A stretch of 64,000 nucleotides of DNA, taken from contig CAMLSG010000002.1 of NCBI GenBank assembly GCA_946482635.1, positions 1 to 64,000 on the forward strand, given 5' to 3'. Positions 21,670 to 34,948 of this stretch are shown in pieces (the first letter of the stretch is position 1; every line of letters starts with the position of its first letter). The notes under the pieces were generated by a model. That model was not told the origin of the DNA. It saw only the letters and a program-made list of their open reading frames with translations, and made no database searches. Made by a program: the position numbers and the translations under genes. The stretch is from an uncultured Duganella sp. (GTDB lineage Bacteria > Pseudomonadota > Gammaproteobacteria > Burkholderiales > Burkholderiaceae).

Positions 21670-22386
21670 ATGAGCAAACTCGCTTCCGCCCTGCAGGCGC
21701 CGCAACTGTACGAGATCGTCGCCGACCGCCTCCAGGGCATGGTGCTGGCCGGGGAATATGCAACGGGCACGCGCCTGCCGGCGGAACGCAGCCTTTCGCT
21801 GGCGCTGGGCGTTGGCCGCGCCACGGTGCGCGAGGCGATTGCGGCGCTGGTCAACCGCGGCATCCTCGAAACCCGGCCCAATTCCGGCACTTATGTGCTG
21901 CCGGGTGCGCTGGACGCGATCCGCGCGGCAGGCGCGCCGCTGGCGGCCGATACCAGCCCAAGCGCAACCTTGGCCGCGCGCCTGGCTATCGAGCCGCTGA
22001 TCGCCGAGTTCGCGGCGGCGGTTGGCAAGCGCGATCGGGAAATGGAAGCTTTGCTGGACCAGATGGAGGCCATCAGCGACTGGGCCGATGCGGGCGCGCG
22101 CCAGCAATGGAATGAACTCGACCGCCAGTTCCACCAGCGCATTGCCGCGATGAGCGGCAACCCGGTCATGATTGCCATTGCCGGCGTCGTCGCGGGCGCG
22201 GTCGACGAGCCGCTATGGCGCCAGCTGCGCGATACCGGCATCCACGATCCGGCCCGCGCCCGCCTGTACGTCTACGAACACCGCCTGATCTACGAAGCCA
22301 TCGCCAGCGGCAACCAGGAGGCGGCGCGCTTTTACGTGCGCCAGCACCTGGAGCGCGTGCAGAAGGACATCCTCACCTACGCTTAA
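21670..22386 (+). CDS. GntR/FadR family (FCD domain) transcriptional regulator
   Basis: A 238-aa regulator. The winged helix is N-terminal (about 10-75: YEIVADRLQGMVLAGEYATG, LPAERSLSLALGVGRATVREA, ALVNRGILETRPNSGTYV). The FCD ligand domain is C-terminal, with metal-type residues in ELDRQFHQRIAAMSGN and YEHRLIYEAIASGNQEAARFYVRQHL. It is divergent from the hydroxyproline operon and most likely controls it in response to an acidic intermediate. The 3' end overlaps the DUF2149 gene stop by 4 bp. Confidence 0.92.
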   Translation: MSKLASALQAPQLYEIVADRLQGMVLAGEYATGTRLPAERSLSLALGVGRATVREAIAALVNRGILETRPNSGTYVLPGALDAIRAAGAPLAADTSPSATLAARLAIEPLIAEFAAAVGKRDREMEALLDQMEAISDWADAGARQQWNELDRQFHQRIAAMSGNPVMIAIAGVVAGAVDEPLWRQLRDTGIHDPARARLYVYEHRLIYEAIASGNQEAARFYVRQHLERVQKDILTYA

Positions 22387-22742
22387 GGGCGCGGGGCCGC
22401 TTCGGTCTTTGCGGGTTCGATCAGCACCAGCTGGCCGGTCTTGGGGTCGCGGAATACTTCGCCGACGCGGTCGTAACCGCTGCCGGCTTGCGTCACGCCG
22501 TCGGCGGGGCGCTCGATCTGGCGGCCCTTCTCCACCGGCTTGTGCTGGAGCGCGCCCTGGCTGCCCGCGATAGCTGCGATCAGGCCGCAGGCAAACACCA
22601 GCATCACGTCGACCAGGTTGACCAGGCTGGCGCGCGGGTCTTCATCGCTGTCGTCGAAGCGGGAGTCGAGGTGCCGGTACAGGCGCAGGCGCTTGCGGGC
22701 CGGGACGGCGGCATTGCCGGTGGCATTGGGCTGGTCCCTCAT
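22383..22742 (-). CDS. DUF2149 family protein, ExbD/TolR-like
   Basis: A 119-aa protein, third gene of the cobalamin-riboswitch operon. It has a basic N-terminus (PARKRLRLYRHLDSRFDD), then one membrane segment LVNLVDVMLVFACGLIAAI (about 40-58). Its D45 sits where ExbD and TolR carry the proton-relay Asp (the (V/I)DVMLVL motif). A short periplasmic tail (GQLVLIEPAKTEAAPRP) follows. The ATG overlaps the stop of the ExbB-like gene (ATGA). Together they look like a small ion-driven motor dedicated to the CobN-like protein. DUF2149 has no characterised role that I know of. Confidence 0.88.
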   Translation of the reverse strand: MRDQPNATGNAAVPARKRLRLYRHLDSRFDDSDEDPRASLVNLVDVMLVFACGLIAAIAGSQGALQHKPVEKGRQIERPADGVTQAGSGYDRVGEVFRDPKTGQLVLIEPAKTEAAPRP

Positions 22743-23182
22743 GCCGCGTGCTCCATGGCGTCGAGCGTTTCTTCGTACCAGCGGCGGCGCAGCTTGCCGA
22801 TTACCAGGCCGGCAATGCCGGCAACCAGCCCGAGGACCGTGGCGTCGAAAGCGACTGTCACGGCGCTGGCCAGTTGTGCGGGGTTGCCCTGTCCAAGGGC
22901 TGCCAGGCCCGGGCCAAGGGGGATGATGGTGGCCATCAGGCCCAGCATCGGAGGGATCCGGGCCAGCAGGTCGGCGCGCTCGAGGCGATGGCGGGCAAGG
23001 GCCTGGATGTGGGCGGCGTTGCCGGCTGCGCGCAGCTTTTTCAGGCCGCTGAAACGTTCGCCGGCGGCGATGCCTGCTTCCACCGCCGCAATGGCGCACG
23101 CGACGAGGAGTGCCAGCAGCGCCGGCGCGAGGAGGTAGCTGACGCCGTCGTGCAGCCAGGCGTAGGTTTGGTTGTCGATCAT
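22739..23182 (-). CDS. MotA/TolQ/ExbB proton channel family protein
   Basis: A 147-aa membrane protein, shorter than ExbB. Three hydrophobic segments are seen (about 15-40, 90-112 and 118-138). The TolQ/ExbB-like core is ARIPPMLGLMATIIPLGPGL followed by AFDATVLGLVAGIAGLVIG. It overlaps the stop of the CobN-like gene by ATGA and is itself overlapped by the DUF2149 start, so the three products are made together. By analogy with ExbB-ExbD it would couple ion flow to work on the large periplasmic partner. Confidence 0.92.
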   Translation of the reverse strand: MIDNQTYAWLHDGVSYLLAPALLALLVACAIAAVEAGIAAGERFSGLKKLRAAGNAAHIQALARHRLERADLLARIPPMLGLMATIIPLGPGLAALGQGNPAQLASAVTVAFDATVLGLVAGIAGLVIGKLRRRWYEETLDAMEHAA

Positions 23183-26100
23183 TGGTGTGCTCCTTTGAGG
23201 ATGGGTGTCTGGGTGCCGCGATGCACGCCCAGCGCAAACAGGGCCAGGCCGGCGGCCAGGGCGGCCAACAGGGCAAGCAGGCGCATGGCGCGCTCGGCGG
23301 GGGATTGCGTGGCTTCGGCAAGGTCGCGCAGCTCGTAGGCGCGCGGCTGCGCCGACTGGGCGTTTGCGCGCGCAACGGCGCCCATCTCGGCCACCTCCTG
23401 CGTGGTGCGCCGTTGCTGCGCTGGGCGGGCTGCGTCCGGCTCCGCGCTGTTGCGCGCAGCAGGGCCTGACGCGGCTTCGGCTTGCGCGGTAGCGGCGCTG
23501 GCTGGTGCAGAGCCGGGTTGCGCGTTGGCGGCAGCAGTAGCGCCGGCAGGAACGGCCGTGGCGTACGCCTCGGCGGCCAGCGCATCGCCGCGCGCCTTGG
23601 CAAGGGTGCTGGCCAAGGCCTGCGCGTCGGCCGGATCAAGCTGCGGCGACAGCCATTGCCACATCGGATGGTCAGGCGCGGTGTGGCCGCTGCCCGGCAA
23701 ACCGTTACTGGCAACCAGGCGGGCCAGCTCGCCGCCCATTTTGCTGATGGTGGCCTCGTCGGTTTTCCAGTAGCCCTTCTCGGCCGCCACCATGAAGATC
23801 GCCAGCATGTGCGCCTTGGCGTGCGCGTTGTGGCGCTGGCCGAGGAATTGCGGCAGGCCGAGCTTATGCGCATCGTCGAAGTAGACCGACTTCACTTCAT
23901 CCCAGGCCCAGTTCTTCACAAGGTCCGGCCGCGTGACCTGCCAGCCCCACAGGTTCTCCAGGAACTCCTGCCCCATGGTGCGGGCGCCCGCATAGCCGTG
24001 CCCCATCAGGGGCTTGATCCATGCCGGGTTGAGGAAACGGCCGCGCAGTTCGCCCAGCATGGCGGAGGCCAGCGGCTCTACGTCGGCGCGTCCCGGTTGC
24101 GCATGCTGCAGGATCAGCGCTTCCGGCACGCGGCCGGTGCGGCTCTCGACTGCCAGCGACAGGCCGCCAAGGTAATCGAAGGCGTCATTGTTATCGAGCA
24201 GGCCGTACAGGTTGCTGGCGCGGCCGTGGTAAGTGCGCGTGATGCCGTCCAGCGCCACGTCAAAGGCGGCATGGTTTGCCTCGCCGCTCGCATCGAGGCC
24301 ATAGGCGTGGCCCATGCGGTTGCGATAGGCCTTGCCGATCTCGTCGCGCTCGCGCCAGGCGCCGGAACGTTCGGTCAGGCGGTTGACGCCGGCGCCGTAA
24401 GCGCCAGGAGCGTCGCCGAAGATGCGCTGGGCGGCGGCGCGGCCGGCGTCGGCCAGCGGCATGCCGCCCGCTTGCAGCGCGCGCACGCGCACCAGCCATT
24501 CGCGCGCCACGCGATTGTTCGCAGTCGGCTCGTGGCCCCAGGCGGCGCTGGCGCCAGTGCTGCCGCCACCGGCGCCGGCGCTGCTGCCCAGCGGCGCCAG
24601 CGCGGATTCCAACGCCTCGCGCAATCCAGGTTCCTGCTCGGCGATACCGGCGGCGGAAGCAGCCAGCGACATGCGCCCCGCACGGTCAATCAGGCGGATC
24701 AGGTTCGGATACAGGTCACGAAACAGGCCGGACGTGGTCACCAGCGCATCGCGCCGCACGGCGCCCGGCACCAGCCGCACATCGTTGACGATGCCGCGCG
24801 CATTCCATACCGGCTCCGCGCCCATCATCGCCAGCGCAAACGCCACCATCACGCCTTCATCGCGCACCGCATCTGATGCCCACAGCAGGATGCCTTCGCT
24901 GCCGGCATCGGAGCGTTCGCGCGCCGAAGCTTTGGCCGCCAGGCTGGCGCCCATCTGGTAGCCGATTCTGGTCGGCAGGATATCGCCATCGACCGCGTGG
25001 AAATTGCGGCCCGTCGGCAGCGCTTCCGGCGAGCGCAAGGGGTCATTGCCCTTGCCCGGTTCAATGAAGCGGCCGTCCAGGCCCGCCAGCAGCGCGCGCA
25101 TTTCATTGAGCGGCGAAGCGGCCAGCTTGCGCGCCACCTCGGGATCGTCGATGCCGCCCTTCTTCATCGACTCCAGCATCAGGTCGATGGATTCCTGCTT
25201 CCATGGACGGCCAAAGATGTGCAGGCCGTGCGGCATGAATTTTTCCTGCAGCTTGGTCAGGTAGTGGCCCACTTCGTGCGCCAGCAGGTCGTCGTCGGCC
25301 GCGTCGAAGCCGATGCCGCGCACCGCCAGCACGTCCGCCATCGACGCTTCCAGTTCCGCCTTCAGGTTCAGGGCCACCACGCGCTCGCGCATCAGCTGCG
25401 CGGCTTTTGCCTTCAGCGTGTCGGAACTGGCGGCCTCGTAGCTCTCCACAATCTGGCGCAGCGACAGCAGTTCGTCGTACAGCGGCGTGGATGCCAGCGG
25501 CGGCGTCAGGTGGTCAACCATCACCGCCAGGCCGCGCCGCTTGGCCTGCGTGCCTTCGCCCACGCCGTCCACGATGTAGGGATAGATGCCGGGCAGGTCG
25601 CCCGCGATCAGGCTGGGAAAGTCGTCGCCCGACAGCCCGACCGCCTTCCCCGGCAAAAACTCATAGGTCGAGTGGCGGCCGATATGCACCAGCGCATCGG
25701 CCTTGAAGCGGTCGCGCAGCCAGTGGTAGAAGGCCAGGTACTGGTGCGGCGGCGGCACGCTGGTATTCGCATGCAGCAGCTCTTCGTCCACTTCCCAGCC
25801 GCGCGGCGGCTGCGGTCCAATGAAGACGTTGCCGAACTGGATGCCCGGCACCAGCAGCTTGCCGCTGTCGACCATGATCTTGCCCGGTGCGGGGCCCCAA
25901 CCCTTCAGGCCCTCGATGCCGTAGGACGCCACACGGCGGCGCAACGGTTCCAACGCGGAGCAGCGGCGCGGCGCCTTCGCCTGCAGGCAGCCCGCATAGC
26001 CATCGGCCAGCGCAGCCAGGTCACGGATCGCTGCCTCGCGCTGCGGATGATCGGCGCCTTCCACCAAGTGCTGCAGTTCCTTGATCACGACTTCCGCCTG

Positions 26101-27687
26101 CTTGCGGCCGAGCGCCCATTCGCCCGCAGTTTCCGCTTCCAGCACGTCGGCGTGCAAGCGGCCCAGCAGGCCGCTGGTCATTTCGCCCTGCACGCGCGGC
26201 GACAGCGTCGCGAACCACTTCGCATAATCGGCGGCGCTGACGCTGTTCACGGAGCCGGCCAGCTCGCGCAAGGCGCCGCGGTCCTCCGGCAGGTTGACGC
26301 CATGCGCCATGATGCGGTCAAGCAGCGCTTCCGGCGTGGCTGGCAATTCACCGACCGTGTAGCCGGCGTCCCTCAAGGCATGCAGCATGTCGAACAGCGA
26401 AGCCGGCACGTCCAGGTTGTCGGCGCCGATGTTCTGGCGGCCCGGCGGGTGGTTGTAGTAGACCAGCGCCACGCGTTTGTCGCGGTTGGACTTGGCGCGC
26501 AATGCCAGCCAGCGCTCGACGCGCGCCGCCAGGCGCTCCGCTTCCGCCGCCAGCACCACAGGCGGACGGTTCTCGATGCCGGTCAGCTTGTCGCGCTGCG
26601 GCTCGCCCAGTGCCGCCACCACGATGGGCTGGCCGATGCCCTGCAGCTCCGGCAACGCCACGCGGTATTGCACCGAATCCGGCGGCAAGCCGTCCGGCGA
26701 CAGGCGCCATTGCATGGCGGTGCGGTCGGACAGCCGGATCGCCTTGAACAGCGGGATGTCGAGCTTCTTGAACGCTTCGCTGACGGCTTCGCGCCCTTCG
26801 GCGGCGCCCACCACAAAGTCCTGCAGCACCACCATGGCGGCCGGCACGGCAGGCGCAATCAGTTCCGGCAAGCGCTCCAGCGCCTCGCGCGAGGCGCCGC
26901 CCCAGCGCGGCAGCACCTGCACGCATTGCTGGCCAATGCGTTCGACCTGCTTGCAGACCGCATCGGGCACCGTACCATCCATGTTCGACAGGTCCAGCAC
27001 CACCACGGTGGGACGCGCCTGCAGGCCTAGCTGCGCCGCCCTGCCCCATGCCGCCGCATCGTGCAGTTCGCGCTGGCCGGCGCGCAGGCGCAGCGTCGGT
27101 TCCGGTTGCGGCTCAGCCAGGGCGCGCGAAGGGTCGAGCAGGTGTGCGAACAGGGCTGCCGTGTTGTCGCGGCCACCGGCCTGCCAGACCTGGCGCGCAG
27201 CCAGCCACTGGCCCGCCGCCGGCCGCGCCCTGGCTGCCTGCAGCGCCGCTTCCGGCGGCTGCTCGCTCGAGAGCTGGCGCAGCGTTTCCGGCGAAAAGCC
27301 CTGCAGACTGCCTTGCCGCCCGCGCGACATCAGGCTGAGCGTGGCCTCGCCGTTCATGGCCAGCACGCTGGCCTGCGGGCGGGCGTGGCGCGGCAAGAAT
27401 TCCTTCAGGCGCCGCGCCGGGTCGCCGAACAGCGATACGGCCAGTATGCTATCGGCCTGCGCCAGCCACTGGGCCGCTTGCTTGTCGTCGGCCGCCATCC
27501 ATTGCGCGGGCGTGCGCAGCACGATGCGGTCCTGGGGATGACCGGCCAGGTGGCGATGGGCCGCCTCGATAGCGACGGGCGCGGCGCGTTCGGTCACGAT
27601 GGCAAACAGCACCGCGGCGTTGGCACGCGCGCAAGCGAACGCACATAGCAGGACCGCAATGGTCCGGGCAAAGGTAGTGGTAGGCAC
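23179..27687 (-). CDS. Exported, membrane-anchored CobN/Mg-chelatase H-like protein
   Basis: About 1,500 aa, related to the large subunit of cobaltochelatase (CobN), Mg-chelatase (ChlH) and HmuS. Unlike cytoplasmic CobN it begins with a signal peptide (FARTIAVLLCAFACARANA). It ends in a single membrane helix (RLLALLAALAAGLALFALGV) after an Ala-rich linker, so the body should face the periplasm. CobN hallmarks include VALVYYNHPPGRQNIGADNL, GNVFIGPQPPRGWEVD, ALVHIGRHSTYEFLPGK and WASDAVRDEGVMVAFALAMM. I favour the GTG at 27687 as start; a TTG at 27732 is possible. Cobalamin-riboswitch control and the ExbB/ExbD-like neighbours point to handling of corrinoids or other tetrapyrroles outside the cytoplasm. 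The CobS/CobT ATPase partners are absent here. Confidence 0.9.
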   Translation of the reverse strand: MPTTTFARTIAVLLCAFACARANAAVLFAIVTERAAPVAIEAAHRHLAGHPQDRIVLRTPAQWMAADDKQAAQWLAQADSILAVSLFGDPARRLKEFLPRHARPQASVLAMNGEATLSLMSRGRQGSLQGFSPETLRQLSSEQPPEAALQAARARPAAGQWLAARQVWQAGGRDNTAALFAHLLDPSRALAEPQPEPTLRLRAGQRELHDAAAWGRAAQLGLQARPTVVVLDLSNMDGTVPDAVCKQVERIGQQCVQVLPRWGGASREALERLPELIAPAVPAAMVVLQDFVVGAAEGREAVSEAFKKLDIPLFKAIRLSDRTAMQWRLSPDGLPPDSVQYRVALPELQGIGQPIVVAALGEPQRDKLTGIENRPPVVLAAEAERLAARVERWLALRAKSNRDKRVALVYYNHPPGRQNIGADNLDVPASLFDMLHALRDAGYTVGELPATPEALLDRIMAHGVNLPEDRGALRELAGSVNSVSAADYAKWFATLSPRVQGEMTSGLLGRLHADVLEAETAGEWALGRKQAEVVIKELQHLVEGADHPQREAAIRDLAALADGYAGCLQAKAPRRCSALEPLRRRVASYGIEGLKGWGPAPGKIMVDSGKLLVPGIQFGNVFIGPQPPRGWEVDEELLHANTSVPPPHQYLAFYHWLRDRFKADALVHIGRHSTYEFLPGKAVGLSGDDFPSLIAGDLPGIYPYIVDGVGEGTQAKRRGLAVMVDHLTPPLASTPLYDELLSLRQIVESYEAASSDTLKAKAAQLMRERVVALNLKAELEASMADVLAVRGIGFDAADDDLLAHEVGHYLTKLQEKFMPHGLHIFGRPWKQESIDLMLESMKKGGIDDPEVARKLAASPLNEMRALLAGLDGRFIEPGKGNDPLRSPEALPTGRNFHAVDGDILPTRIGYQMGASLAAKASARERSDAGSEGILLWASDAVRDEGVMVAFALAMMGAEPVWNARGIVNDVRLVPGAVRRDALVTTSGLFRDLYPNLIRLIDRAGRMSLAASAAGIAEQEPGLREALESALAPLGSSAGAGGGSTGASAAWGHEPTANNRVAREWLVRVRALQAGGMPLADAGRAAAQRIFGDAPGAYGAGVNRLTERSGAWRERDEIGKAYRNRMGHAYGLDASGEANHAAFDVALDGITRTYHGRASNLYGLLDNNDAFDYLGGLSLAVESRTGRVPEALILQHAQPGRADVEPLASAMLGELRGRFLNPAWIKPLMGHGYAGARTMGQEFLENLWGWQVTRPDLVKNWAWDEVKSVYFDDAHKLGLPQFLGQRHNAHAKAHMLAIFMVAAEKGYWKTDEATISKMGGELARLVASNGLPGSGHTAPDHPMWQWLSPQLDPADAQALASTLAKARGDALAAEAYATAVPAGATAAANAQPGSAPASAATAQAEAASGPAARNSAEPDAARPAQQRRTTQEVAEMGAVARANAQSAQPRAYELRDLAEATQSPAERAMRLLALLAALAAGLALFALGVHRGTQTPILKGAHQ

Positions 27688-27740
27688 AGCAGGATTCCGA
27701 GCACGCAAAACCACACCCCGGGCTTCGCACAATCAAAAGT

Positions 27741-27930
27741 GACTGGCCGGTCTTCTGGCTCGCCTTCATCCTCCGCTGGCCTGGCCTTCCCGTGCGATGC
27801 ACAGTGGCGTTGGTCAGCTTCGTCCGGCTTACAGCAGCGGGGGCTGCGCCGGACTGGCGCAAGATGGCTATCCCGCGCGGCACCGGCTTCCCGTTTCACC
27901 TCCCGGCAGGCTTGCAGGAAGGCACCAATC
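27741..27930 (-). promoter_or_regulatory. Cobalamin (AdoCbl) riboswitch
   Basis: The minus-strand RNA shows the conserved order GGTGCC, then GGGAAGCCGGTG. Next come the core GCAGCCCCCGCTGCTGTAA (27829-27847), CCACTG, GGGAAGGCC, GATGA, and the B12 box AGCCAGAAGACCGGCC (27760-27745). It sits just upstream of the CobN-like gene. About 54 nt separate it from the favoured start codon, so ribosome-site occlusion is a likely output. B12 would lower expression. Confidence 0.93.
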
Positions 27931-28094
27931 ACATAACGTGCGCCATTCTAACAGACTGCACTTGGCCAACAATCTAGCCAGAAGAACAACGACTGTTGTT
28001 ATAAAGATCCACTTCTTAGAAATGATTGGTAATTCGTGAGAATTAGGTATTTACTGCTAAGTACGCGTCAAAGAACGTGTCTGGGAGAGTAAAA

Positions 28095-32908: not shown

Positions 32909-32934
<26 letters not shown>

Positions 32935-34948
32935 TACGCGCAAATCCCAGCAAGCCCAGGCCGGCCAGCAGCATCGCGCCCTGCGCCGGTTCCGGCACTG
33001 GCGATAGCAGGAAGGTGGCCCGCGCTTCCCACTCGCTGCCGGCCCTGGCAAGCACCTGGCCGCTGGCATTGATGTCCCACGCACTTTGCAAGAACCAGCC
33101 GGCGTATTGCTCCTCGTTCCATACATGGTCCATCACATAGGGGTGGCCCTGGTGCCACAGCATGGCGCGCCGGTAATCGGCCATTTCACCTACCGCGCTG
33201 CCCGCATCGTTGATGCCGTAAGCATAGCCTGACCATAGGTCCTGGTGTTGCCATTGGCCGTCGCCCATGAGCAGCGTGAATGCATTGCCATTATCCTGGA
33301 AGCCGGCCAGCCGCCCTTCGCTGTTCAGGGCGCGCACTTCAAAGTCATACGCCAGTTGATATTCGCCGAAAACACCATCCTGCCAGCTCCTGGCGCCAAA
33401 TTCGTCGCTACGGCCACCGATGACAAGGCCCAGGTCGTTGATCAGCCGCGGCCGGTAATCGTCGAACAGTTGCTGCGCGCTGCCGTCGCCCCACTGGATG
33501 AAGCCGATCGGACCGGAGCCGGCCTCGCCGGTGCTGTAGCCGACAATGTCGCCGCGGTTGTTAAGCCCTGCCGCATAGGCGTTCGATCCGGCGAAATGCA
33601 GCAGCTCCATCGCGCCGCCATTGCGCCATATGACCGGCTGCGACTGCGAAGAGCCCGGCACCGAGATATTGCCGATGATCGTCCCCTGGTTATTGAAACC
33701 GGTGAGGGTGAGCTCCCCGGCAACGCCTGCCAGGTGCACGAGCGAGCCGTCGGGATTCCAGATCATCGGCTTGCCGTCCTGGCCAATGCCCGCCACCTGC
33801 CCGGCGTCATTCAGGAACTTCGGCGCAAACTGGTCGTCGAACTTGAGTGCCCGGTAGGCAGGCGCTTGCTGTGCATACGCGGTACAGGCGAACAGCGCCA
33901 GCAACGAGGATGACAGCAGGCGCGCCGGCAGTCTTTTCTGCACCAGCCAGCGCGCTCCCAGCAGCAGCAGGCCGGCCAACAGTAGAGTGACGACCTGCGG
34001 CTCGGGCACAGGCGACAGCAGGAAAGTTCCGGACCCGCCCAGTGAGCCGATGCCACTGGCGAGAATTGCACCGCTGTCGTTGATGTCCCATGCATTGAGC
34101 AGGGTCCAGCCCGAGTACCGGGCGTCATGCCACAAGTGGTCCAGGTCATAGGTCCGGTCCTGGTACCACAACATGGCATGTACGCTGAGCTCAGTCTCCC
34201 CGACAATACTGCCGGCATCGTTCATGGCGTGGGCGAAGCCGGACCACATGTCCTGGATGTCGCGCTGACCGTCCCTGTCAATGAGCGAGAACGCCTGGTA
34301 ATTGTCGTGCCAGCCCGCCAGGCGTCCTTCGTTGTTGAGCGCACGGATGAATAAATCGCTATATGGGGATGCGCCGAATGCACCGTCCTGCCAGCTCCTG
34401 AGGCCATATTCACCGCCCACCTGCCCAAGGACGAGGCCATGGTCGTTGACCATCAGCGGTGCGTAGTTGTCGAACAGTTGCGGCGCGCTGCCGTCACCCC
34501 ACTGGATGAAGCCGACTTGCCCGGAGCCCGTGTCGGACGCGCCGACCATATAGCCGACAATGTCGCCACGGTTGTTGATGCCTGCCGTAGTGCCGCCCAG
34601 TCCTTGCAGCGGCAAGCGCTCCACCGCGCCACCATTGCGCCACATGACCGGCTGCTGCAAATTGTAGCCCGGCAGCAAGGCATTGCCGACGATCGTGCCC
34701 TGGTTGTTAAATCCTGTGATGGTGAGCTGGCTCACTGCGCCAGCCAGCTGTATGACCGAACCATCCGGATTCCAGATGACCGGCCTGCCATCCTGCCCGA
34801 TGCCGGCGACCTGGCCCAGGTCATTCAGCATTTGCGGCGCGAACTGGCCGTCGAACTTCAACGCCTGATACGTCGGCGCACCCTGCACGTAGGCGCTCCA
34901 TGCCAGCAGCGCCAGCAAGGACAAGAGCAAACGAACGAACCTGGGCAT
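32909..34948 (-). CDS. Tandem-fused HAF-repeat PEP-CTERM protein (two preproteins in one frame)
   Basis: A 679-aa frame made of two homologous copies about 338 residues apart. Copy 1 has a signal peptide (1-23). HAF-type repeats follow, such as GFNNQGTIVGN and INNRGDIVGY. It then has a complete PEP-CTERM signal: VPEP at 314-317, a hydrophobic helix and RWLVQKR. Copy 2 follows at once with its own signal peptide (about 340-361) and equivalent repeats (LNNRGDIVGYS), and ends with a second VPEP (651-654), helix and RIRPGRR. A GTG at 33943 with GGGAG upstream could start copy 2 separately. Such proteins are normally cut by an exosortase in the envelope; none is in this window. The 3' end overlaps recQ. 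Confidence 0.85.

Follow-up and report, generated by a model that had tools for sequence, protein, structure and literature searches.

Class I chelatases such as CobNST and ChlHID/BchHID are cytoplasmic and driven by adenosine triphosphate (ATP) through AAA+ partners (PMC7689651). How, then, could a member of this family work outside the cytoplasm? The question is raised by a three-gene operon in a 64,000-nucleotide stretch of an uncultured Duganella sp. (contig CAMLSG010000002.1, positions 1 to 64,000; hereafter the window), which encodes a CobN-like protein with export features, an ExbB-like protein and a DUF2149 protein, preceded by a vitamin B12 (cobalamin) riboswitch. We propose, with a probability of about one half, that the operon specifies an inner-membrane, ion-driven class I chelatase that handles scavenged corrinoids in the periplasm, with the ExbB-DUF2149 pair acting as its motor in place of CobST. 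The export features, the gene partnership and the B12 control are well supported at the level of sequence, whereas the powering of the enzyme and its chemistry are proposed more cautiously.

A B12-riboswitch operon for a predicted exported chelatase

The whole operon lies on the minus strand and runs from the riboswitch through the CobN-like and ExbB-like genes to the DUF2149 gene:
27728..27944, minus strand: cobalamin riboswitch aptamer (RF00174, 116.5 bits against a gathering score of 31.5, E = 1.6e-28)
23179..27687, minus strand: predicted exported CobN-like class I chelatase of the BtuS/HmuS type, about 1502 residues (PF02514, 826 bits)
27616..27687, minus strand: putative signal peptide of the CobN-like protein, MPTTTFARTIAVLLCAFACARANA (hydropathy and sequence reading)
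23221..23283, minus strand: C-terminal membrane helix of the CobN-like protein, approximate limits (mean hydropathy 2.67 over 17 residues)
22739..23182, minus strand: ExbB/TolQ-like channel protein, 147 residues (PF01618, 35 bits, cut-off 22.9)
22383..22742, minus strand: DUF2149 protein, 119 residues, ExbD-like (PF09919, 33.2 bits, cut-off 27.1)
22563..22631, minus strand: DUF2149 membrane helix with the conserved Asp45 (codon 22610-22608), from conservation and the model helix 38-64

The initial annotation had described a riboswitch and three genes joined by two ATGA overlaps at 22383..27930. The matches to RF00174, PF02514, PF01618 and PF09919 confirm this gene set, and both the CobN-like/ExbB-like and the ExbB-like/DUF2149 junctions are ATGA overlaps; the strand, which had been left unstated, is minus, and the riboswitch reaches 27944. 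It is the single over-threshold RF00174 match in the 64 kb, and also scores 208 bits with our own covariance model (R1), of which it is one of the 10 training sequences. The longest CobN-like frame opens at TTG 27732, and GTG 27687 (MPTTTFARTIAVLLCAFACARANA|AV) is the likelier start. As annotated, the product has roughly 1,500 residues with a leader and a C-terminal membrane helix, both called from hydropathy alone; a near-identical leader is present in three relatives (L010-L012; loci and genomes are numbered with L and G). With these features the protein is almost certainly exported.

The 147-residue protein had been read as ExbB/TolQ-like, and this holds: it bears the signature GLMxTxIPLGPG...FDxT, and its AlphaFold2 model (mean predicted local distance difference test score, pLDDT, 87) returned ExbB/TolQ proteins in all of the first 40 Foldseek places, with a best E value of 0.03 and none below 0.001. 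Tblastn with two query proteins found no CobS/ChlI/ChlD-like stretch in the 64 kb, in agreement with the earlier view that CobS and CobT are missing from the window.

The chelatase belongs to the BtuS/HmuS type

The CobN-like protein falls below the cut-off of all nine CobN/magnesium-chelatase-H models that matched it, including those of the CobN equivalogs (best 595.6 against 1619, and 507.7 against 822.05 for TIGR02257). What it has instead is the combination of a PF02514 match, a leader and membrane anchor (from hydropathy) and adjacent ExbB-like and DUF2149 genes that marks the BtuS/HmuS type. The Bacteroidota proteins of this type (hmuSTUV; BtuS1 and BtuS2 of B. fragilis) are likewise exported, membrane-anchored and CobN-like, and in hmu operons they are followed by ExbB-like and DUF2149 genes (PMC6460266, PMC10434189, PMC12583661, PMC13227078). 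The initial annotation had mentioned HmuS as a related idea; the kinship stands, but the locus is no lone curiosity, being a branch of an already named family.

The PF02514 match would also suit a normal biosynthetic cobaltochelatase whose N-terminus is deceptive, and so would a Marinobacter plasmid on which an exported CobN of 45% identity lies between cbiA and cobO. Such an enzyme should, however, lack the leader and the C-terminal helix and score better with TIGR02257. Furthermore, CobS exceeds its curated cut-off in none of the 42 genomes behind the window-like loci described below (three, G022, G039 and G040, come close below it; CobT was not searched), which agrees with the absence noted in the initial annotation, and the ring-synthesis marker CbiC was not found in 30 of the 42. 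The leader, the anchor, the sub-cut-off scores and the missing partners led us to reject a cytoplasmic biosynthetic CobN, which we consider extremely improbable.

In a FastTree phylogeny (101 sequences, 1166 columns), all 14 non-exported CobN/BchH proteins group together with support 1.0, so that the large subunits of CobNST and ChlHID/BchHID, although of the same family as the window protein and sharing its key His and Glu, stand apart from it. Seven exported proteins from the phylum of Veillonella join this non-exported clade at 0.994; exported chelatases thus need not be one clade. The window protein belongs to a clade of 26 proteobacterial proteins (1.0) adjoining three proteins from the phylum of Coriobacteriia and one from that of Veillonella (30 in all, 1.0), and the position of HmuS is unsupported (0.42). 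At the residue level, His538 and Glu542 (HmuS numbering) are kept in the window protein and in 19 of 19 aligned relatives. The HmuS heme ligand His254 falls in a gap in the window protein and in all 19 relatives, within a gappy, poorly aligned region (Met79 lies outside the coverage), and the position of His1209 is occupied by Asp. We tried the latter as a substrate marker and rejected it, because six paralogues of a second type, described below, also carry Asp there.

Two further forms of the chelatase were seen. Two Veillonella loci (L050, L054) hold a CobN with neither leader nor pair, accompanied by ChlI/ChlD-like genes within a BtuF-BtuC-BtuD cluster, an ATPase-driven counterpart. L177:6810-8213 and L178:9920-11332 each encode a 470-residue mini-CobN with helices at both ends, adjoining an ExbB-DUF2149 pair.

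The ExbB-DUF2149 pair accompanies the chelatase

A scan of species genomes gave 49 loci, and 43 of these carry a window-like CobN (L010-L049 and L051-L053; Beta- and Gammaproteobacteria by their titles), the nearest relatives returned being Duganella species with a CobN 91% identical to that of the window. In 41 of these 43 loci ExbB and DUF2149 come after CobN at a distance of about 1 kb at most, and the trio is therefore not a chance grouping; among the 43 is Azotobacter vinelandii CA, with its trio at L049. The two exceptions are L022, at a contig end, and L018 of Noviherbaspirillum denitrificans (G010), where the chelatase gene is fragmented, with CobN matches at three distant spots on one contig (rearrangement or misassembly). 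A wider survey with PF09919 matched 16 of 398 Pseudomonadota genomes, and in all 17 Pseudomonadota survey loci the CobN has the pair within 2.5 kb. These proteobacterial counts are lower bounds, because PF09919 misses the divergent DUF2149 type of the window: G002 scores 0 with it and 1 with our alignment A2, which holds the sequence of G002 itself. A2 found matches in 21 of 369 genomes of the class. Tblastn of plasmids with DUF2149 gave 13 records, of which the Azospirillum record alone is annotated as DUF2149, and a scan of viral contigs matched 7 stretches, none of them confirmed. The Azospirillum plasmid (L198) carries CobN-ExbB-DUF2149 followed by a B12 riboswitch, ATP-binding cassette (ABC) genes, a TonB receptor gene and nikR, which hints at a nickel or cobalt link.

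The pair itself is highly conserved. Of 121 DUF2149 genes, 117 have a same-strand ExbB gene no more than 250 bp away (neighbor counts leave out chelatase fragments under 900 residues). The initial annotation had singled out the DVML Asp of the DUF2149 helix, and rightly so: this residue, D45 within LVNLVDVMLVF, is Asp in 120 of 121 aligned proteins and Glu in one, and Asn42 is present in all 121. Thr85, Pro88 and Pro91 of ExbB are nearly invariant, in a count that drops 49 alignment rows gapped at the tested columns and taken as second fragments of the same proteins. The window pair has the ExbB fold and the helix Asp in DVMLV in common with the ExbB-ExbD, TolQ-TolR and MotA-MotB motors, and an Asp motif of this type is present in E. 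coli ExbD. It differs from ExbB-ExbD motors in its gene partner, the chelatase, and in that the DUF2149 protein has no Pfam ExbD match (DUF2149 is the only family found at E up to 0.1). A fold comparison of DUF2149 was dropped as the model was too poor.

Outside the Pseudomonadota, PF09919 matches 91 of 294 genomes in the archaeal phylum to which a Natrialbaceae genome (G001) belongs, 6 of 246 (5 over the cut-off) from the phylum of a Coriobacteriia genome and 19 of 249 from that of Veillonella; it also hits the control Methanosarcina acetivorans. The usual archaeal order is DUF2162-ExbB-DUF2149-CobN (CobN comes first in L148), and the CobN frames, one to three per region and 1230-2484 residues long, almost always have both a leader and a C-terminal helix. 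The trio is present in 18 of the first 20 archaeal regions and 22 of 40 overall; these are not random samples, as the regions were chosen by hand: of the 91 positive genomes, the top of the list supplied the first 20 regions, and low-scoring or second copies the other 20. Six archaeal regions (L087, L090, L097, L100, L101, L104) place tandem exported CobN frames behind one motor pair, and the CobN frame of L092 has 2484 residues. In the Coriobacteriia phylum 3 of 5 regions hold the four genes with CobN first; in the Veillonella phylum 7 of 15 have the full trio, and five of these (L165, L166, L168, L169, L170) show DUF2162-ExbB-DUF2149-CobN headed by a B12 riboswitch.

These lineages bear directly on the alternative that the pair is an extra TonB motor for a neighboring receptor, leaving the exported chelatase unpowered. 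HmuU/HmuV are drawn as a TonB receptor motor in Bacteroides papers (PMC12583661, PMC10100974), PA1924 of Pseudomonas aeruginosa is annotated as receptor energy support (PMC9431628), several of our loci have receptor genes near the trio, and HmuS is active in vitro without a motor. Nevertheless, no match to the TonB-receptor barrel family was found in any of 33 pair-bearing genomes (23 archaeal, 3 of the Coriobacteriia phylum and 7 of the Veillonella phylum; CobN is broken or on the opposite strand in two, G281 and G160), whereas the control G005 gave at least 36, which makes a receptor-motor role of the pair hardly tenable in these genomes. Moreover, the three-gene operon of the window contains no TonB gene, and in the 41 loci the pair trails the chelatase whether a receptor is nearby or not. 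A receptor motor is thus an unlikely explanation. The archaeal trios and the receptor-free genomes favor the partnership between channel pair and chelatase that was first suggested from the window, and the pair very likely partners the exported chelatase rather than TonB receptors.

Pairs also occur alone. CobN-less pairs were seen in archaea (L139, L140, L142, L144, L150, L152-L154) and elsewhere (L162, L163, L173-L176), and their scanned neighbors include S-layer (L153), beta-helix (L139), CARDB/TED (L150), BtuF-like PGF-CTERM (L144, L150), ABC_cobalt (L174) and Shr-like heme-binding proteins (L175, L176). We read these pairs as pointing to a wider cell-surface energy module.

Riboswitches and gene company point to corrinoids

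The initial annotation had left the substrate as corrinoid or heme and had called for a survey of the trio and its linkage to B12 riboswitches. Besides the fixed trio, this linkage is evident: of the 43 window-like loci, 38 have a same-strand B12 riboswitch upstream according to a covariance model built from ten riboswitches, 27 of them within 450 nucleotides of the frame start and 11 at the head of a longer gene cluster. Since 9 of the 10 training sequences come from seven of the 43 loci, hits in those loci are partly circular; however, RF00174 independently recovers 37 of 37 sites in the genomes searched (the genome of the 38th, L051, was outside the run). Our model gave no upstream riboswitch at L018, L041, L042, L047 and L048, although RF00174 places one directly upstream of the N-terminal CobN piece in the genomes of L041 and L047. 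As a genome contains only one to eight riboswitches of the RF00174 type, their coincidence with the trio is not chance, and B12 control of the window-type operon is well supported by these sequence matches. In Pseudomonas, Azotobacter and Azomonas (L043-L046, L049, L053) the match upstream of CobN is short (133-138 nucleotides).

The window-like trios cluster with genes for BtuB, BtuC, BtuD, CobO, CbiA, BluB, CbiB, CobD and CobQ. Eight Rhodocyclales loci (L024-L030, L052) share the order BtuB-BtuC-BtuD-CobO-[CobN-ExbB-DUF2149], with CbiA at most 2.6 kb downstream in seven; loci of Methylobacillus, Pseudomonas (two of four), Arhodomonas and an Ectothiorhodospiraceae (L037-L040, L042) have various of CobO, CbiA, BluB, CbiB, CobD, CobQ and BtuF, and the Massilia agri cluster (L015) includes BluB. 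CbiZ is an adenosylcobinamide amidohydrolase of corrinoid salvage, and an exported-looking CbiZ adjoins the trio in 7 loci from three lineages (L025, L026, L047, L048 and L179 by Pfam, L029 and L052 by BLAST). In L025 and L026 (and, by BLAST, L029 and L052) it is one domain of a leader-bearing protein that also has a carbon-nitrogen hydrolase domain and is encoded between CobO and CobN; L047 and L048 have separate leader-bearing CbiZ and hydrolase genes after DUF2149, and in L179 a BtuF-like domain is fused to CbiZ, between CobN and DUF2149. With leaders judged by eye, this apparently exported companion is the strongest pointer to a corrinoid substrate.

The genomes fit this picture. CbiC is present in just 12 of 42, and in the five Oxalobacteraceae regions L208-L212, chosen for riboswitch and amidase gene matches and all from genomes without CbiC, BtuB, BtuC, BtuD, CobO, CbiA, CbiB, CobD, BtuF and CobQ occur together (5 of 5, by BLAST). 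For these reasons many of the relatives' cells seem to salvage incomplete corrinoids. GATase_3 matches strongly (E of 1e-28 or better) in 40 of the 42 genomes, weakly in G027 and not in G039; it is not B12-specific, as it also matches 14 of 14 control genomes. Taken with the riboswitches, the gene company makes it probable that the window branch is linked to corrinoids.

A second type of trio is probably linked to heme

A further full-length chelatase is present in seven genomes. We had considered that these might be second, cytoplasmic CobN proteins, and rejected this for six of them (L200-L205), which are further trios with ExbB and DUF2149 near a TonB receptor gene (2-3 kb separate CobN from ExbB in L201 and L202); clear leaders are present in at least L200, L201, L202 and L205. 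L206 alone is cytoplasmic, its CobN having no leader and being accompanied by ChlI/D-like genes and CbiC. The six trio chelatases fall in a separate proteobacterial clade of 18 (1.0), and none of the six regions has a B12 riboswitch. The receptor beside L200, the only one tested, passes heme/hemoglobin receptor cut-offs. Because six genomes add a riboswitch-less trio near a receptor, heme-type in L200, a corrinoid-type trio and what is probably a heme-type trio appear able to coexist in one cell.

The window operon could still encode an HmuS-like heme de-chelatase that came under a B12 riboswitch by chance: chelatase family and gene partners are the same as those of HmuS, which is among the solved relatives. 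Yet the riboswitch, the B12 gene clusters and the exported CbiZ count against a heme system, His254 has no counterpart in the window protein and its 19 relatives (in the gappy region noted above), and the heme-type receptor stands at a separate, paralogous trio. We consider the heme reading improbable, more so than a receptor motor; of the two substrates first suggested, corrinoid is upheld for the window branch and heme is not. Compared with hmu operons, the window also lacks HmuY, has no HmuT between CobN and ExbB and belongs to a corrinoid gene context, while its protein differs from HmuS at His254 and His1209 and keeps His538.

The genes scanned around the operon appear unrelated to it (a GntR regulator, a proline racemase, an ornithine cyclodeaminase-type protein and a major facilitator superfamily transporter), and no hmuY, hmuR or hmuT was seen among these flanks, from the GntR regulator on one side to the transporter on the other (the scan skipped the small frames that lie between riboswitch and transporter). 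Further along, 32909-34948 on the minus strand encodes a 679-residue PEP-CTERM protein, by eye of two similar halves with a PEP-CTERM-like tail on each.

Discussion

How the operon might work can be outlined. At low B12 the riboswitch would permit expression, the standard behavior of RF00174. The CobN-like protein would be exported and held in the inner membrane by its C-terminal helix, and the ExbB-like and DUF2149 proteins, judging by conservation and fold, would make up a small ExbB-ExbD-like ion channel in which Asp45 carries the ion. Their constant gene partnership suggests that the pair is physically coupled to the chelatase as its dedicated motor, substituting for the ATPase (CobS/CobT or ChlI/ChlD), which would find no ATP outside the cytoplasm. 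That ion flow drives the chelatase is, on balance, the view we favor. The machine would act on scavenged periplasmic corrinoids, beside or before BtuF-BtuCD and in some relatives together with the exported CbiZ and amidase, after which CbiA, CobO, CobQ and others would rebuild the cofactor inside the cell.

As for the reaction, the likeliest chemistry would be metal placement or exchange in incomplete or cobalt-free corrin rings. Cobalt insertion or exchange is a tentative choice, corrinoid transfer only is somewhat less likely, and metal removal is unlikely. The transfer view can be put as a motor-driven carrier or remodeling platform without metal chemistry, passing the receptor's corrinoid to CbiZ, amidase or BtuF. 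Salvaged corrinoids usually already contain cobalt, and the exported CbiZ, the amidase and the BtuF-CbiZ fusion adjoin the trio, all of which suits such a carrier; the catalytic His538 and Glu542, on the other hand, are kept although a pure carrier could dispense with them. We regard it as a rather unlikely but serious alternative to an ion-driven chelatase.

Several observations weigh against the ion-driven corrinoid chelatase. HmuS strips heme iron in vitro with reduced nicotinamide adenine dinucleotide (NADH) and with neither ATP nor motor (PMC12583661), so the motor may be unneeded for the chemistry; by analogy, it may serve loading, release or transfer instead of the metal step itself. 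One paper allows for an effect of HmuT, HmuU and HmuV on the activity of HmuS (PMC13227078). The Marinobacter plasmid has neither ExbB nor DUF2149 in the 20 kb around its CobN (searched with PF09919, then with our own models; the plasmid only, not the chromosome), in L145 a pair is 1 kb away from an archaeal CobN that has no leader, and in archaea and the Veillonella phylum some pairs have no CobN but neighbor S-layer, beta-helix or binding proteins, which makes the pair a wider module. Diderm loci often have a receptor gene nearby, and the pair may serve a receptor there. The structure model of DUF2149 is poor outside the helix (38-64). On the substrate side, the His1209 position is uninformative, CbiC is present in 12 genomes, and none of the 40 archaeal or 5 Coriobacteriia-phylum regions yielded a B12 riboswitch, so that the corrinoid reading is unsupported in them. 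The initial annotation, taken as a whole, is partly supported.

Earlier papers already describe the exported chelatase and archaeal BtuS, the trio as found in Bacteroidota and Pseudomonas, and, in Bacteroides, operons that resemble hmu and carry a B12 riboswitch (PMC10100974). A periplasm-spanning complex has been proposed for the Hmu system (PMC6460266). In P. aeruginosa, PA1922-PA1925 run receptor, CobN-like, annotated exbD and DUF2149; they belong to the Zur regulon, are zinc-regulated and are described as receptor energy support, and no B12 riboswitch is stated for them (PMC9431628). The cobN-exbB-exbD-tonB cluster on pSZ77 of Geobacter lovleyi places CobN and ExbB/ExbD-type genes beside cobalamin clusters without CobS/CobT; unlike the window operon it has tonB, and its role was left open (PMC3403914). 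The methanogen Methanosarcina barkeri has CobN-like BtuS copies (MSBRM_0518, MSBRM_1640), said to lack the whole operon and read as a means of heme iron reuse, with no mention of ExbB or DUF2149 in the passages on them (PMC10846266), and the EMBO J 2025 paper on HmuS calls the archaeal use of CobN/HmuS homologues unclear, complete hmu operons being absent. In the open-access literature (which leaves out most subscription journals and preprints) we found no report of an ion-driven chelatase, of the archaeal or Coriobacteriia-phylum operons, of the receptor-free argument for the motor, of the exported CbiZ companion or of paired corrinoid and heme trios.

Many archaeal homologues stand as DUF2162-ExbB-DUF2149-CobN in genomes without a detected outer-membrane receptor, and these operons make an HmuU/HmuV-type role testable free of the TonB complication. 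We suggest, at rather less than even odds, that exported CobN with an ion-driven ExbB-DUF2149 pair constitutes a third, ATP-free form of class I chelatase, shared by archaea and bacteria, which in the window branch would be the core of a periplasmic corrinoid remodeling line that re-metallates or re-tailors corrinoids before import, HmuS de-chelation being one offshoot. If this is true, an ion-driven mode would join a textbook ATP-driven enzyme class, and the finding points to steps of B12 salvage that take place outside the cytoplasm.

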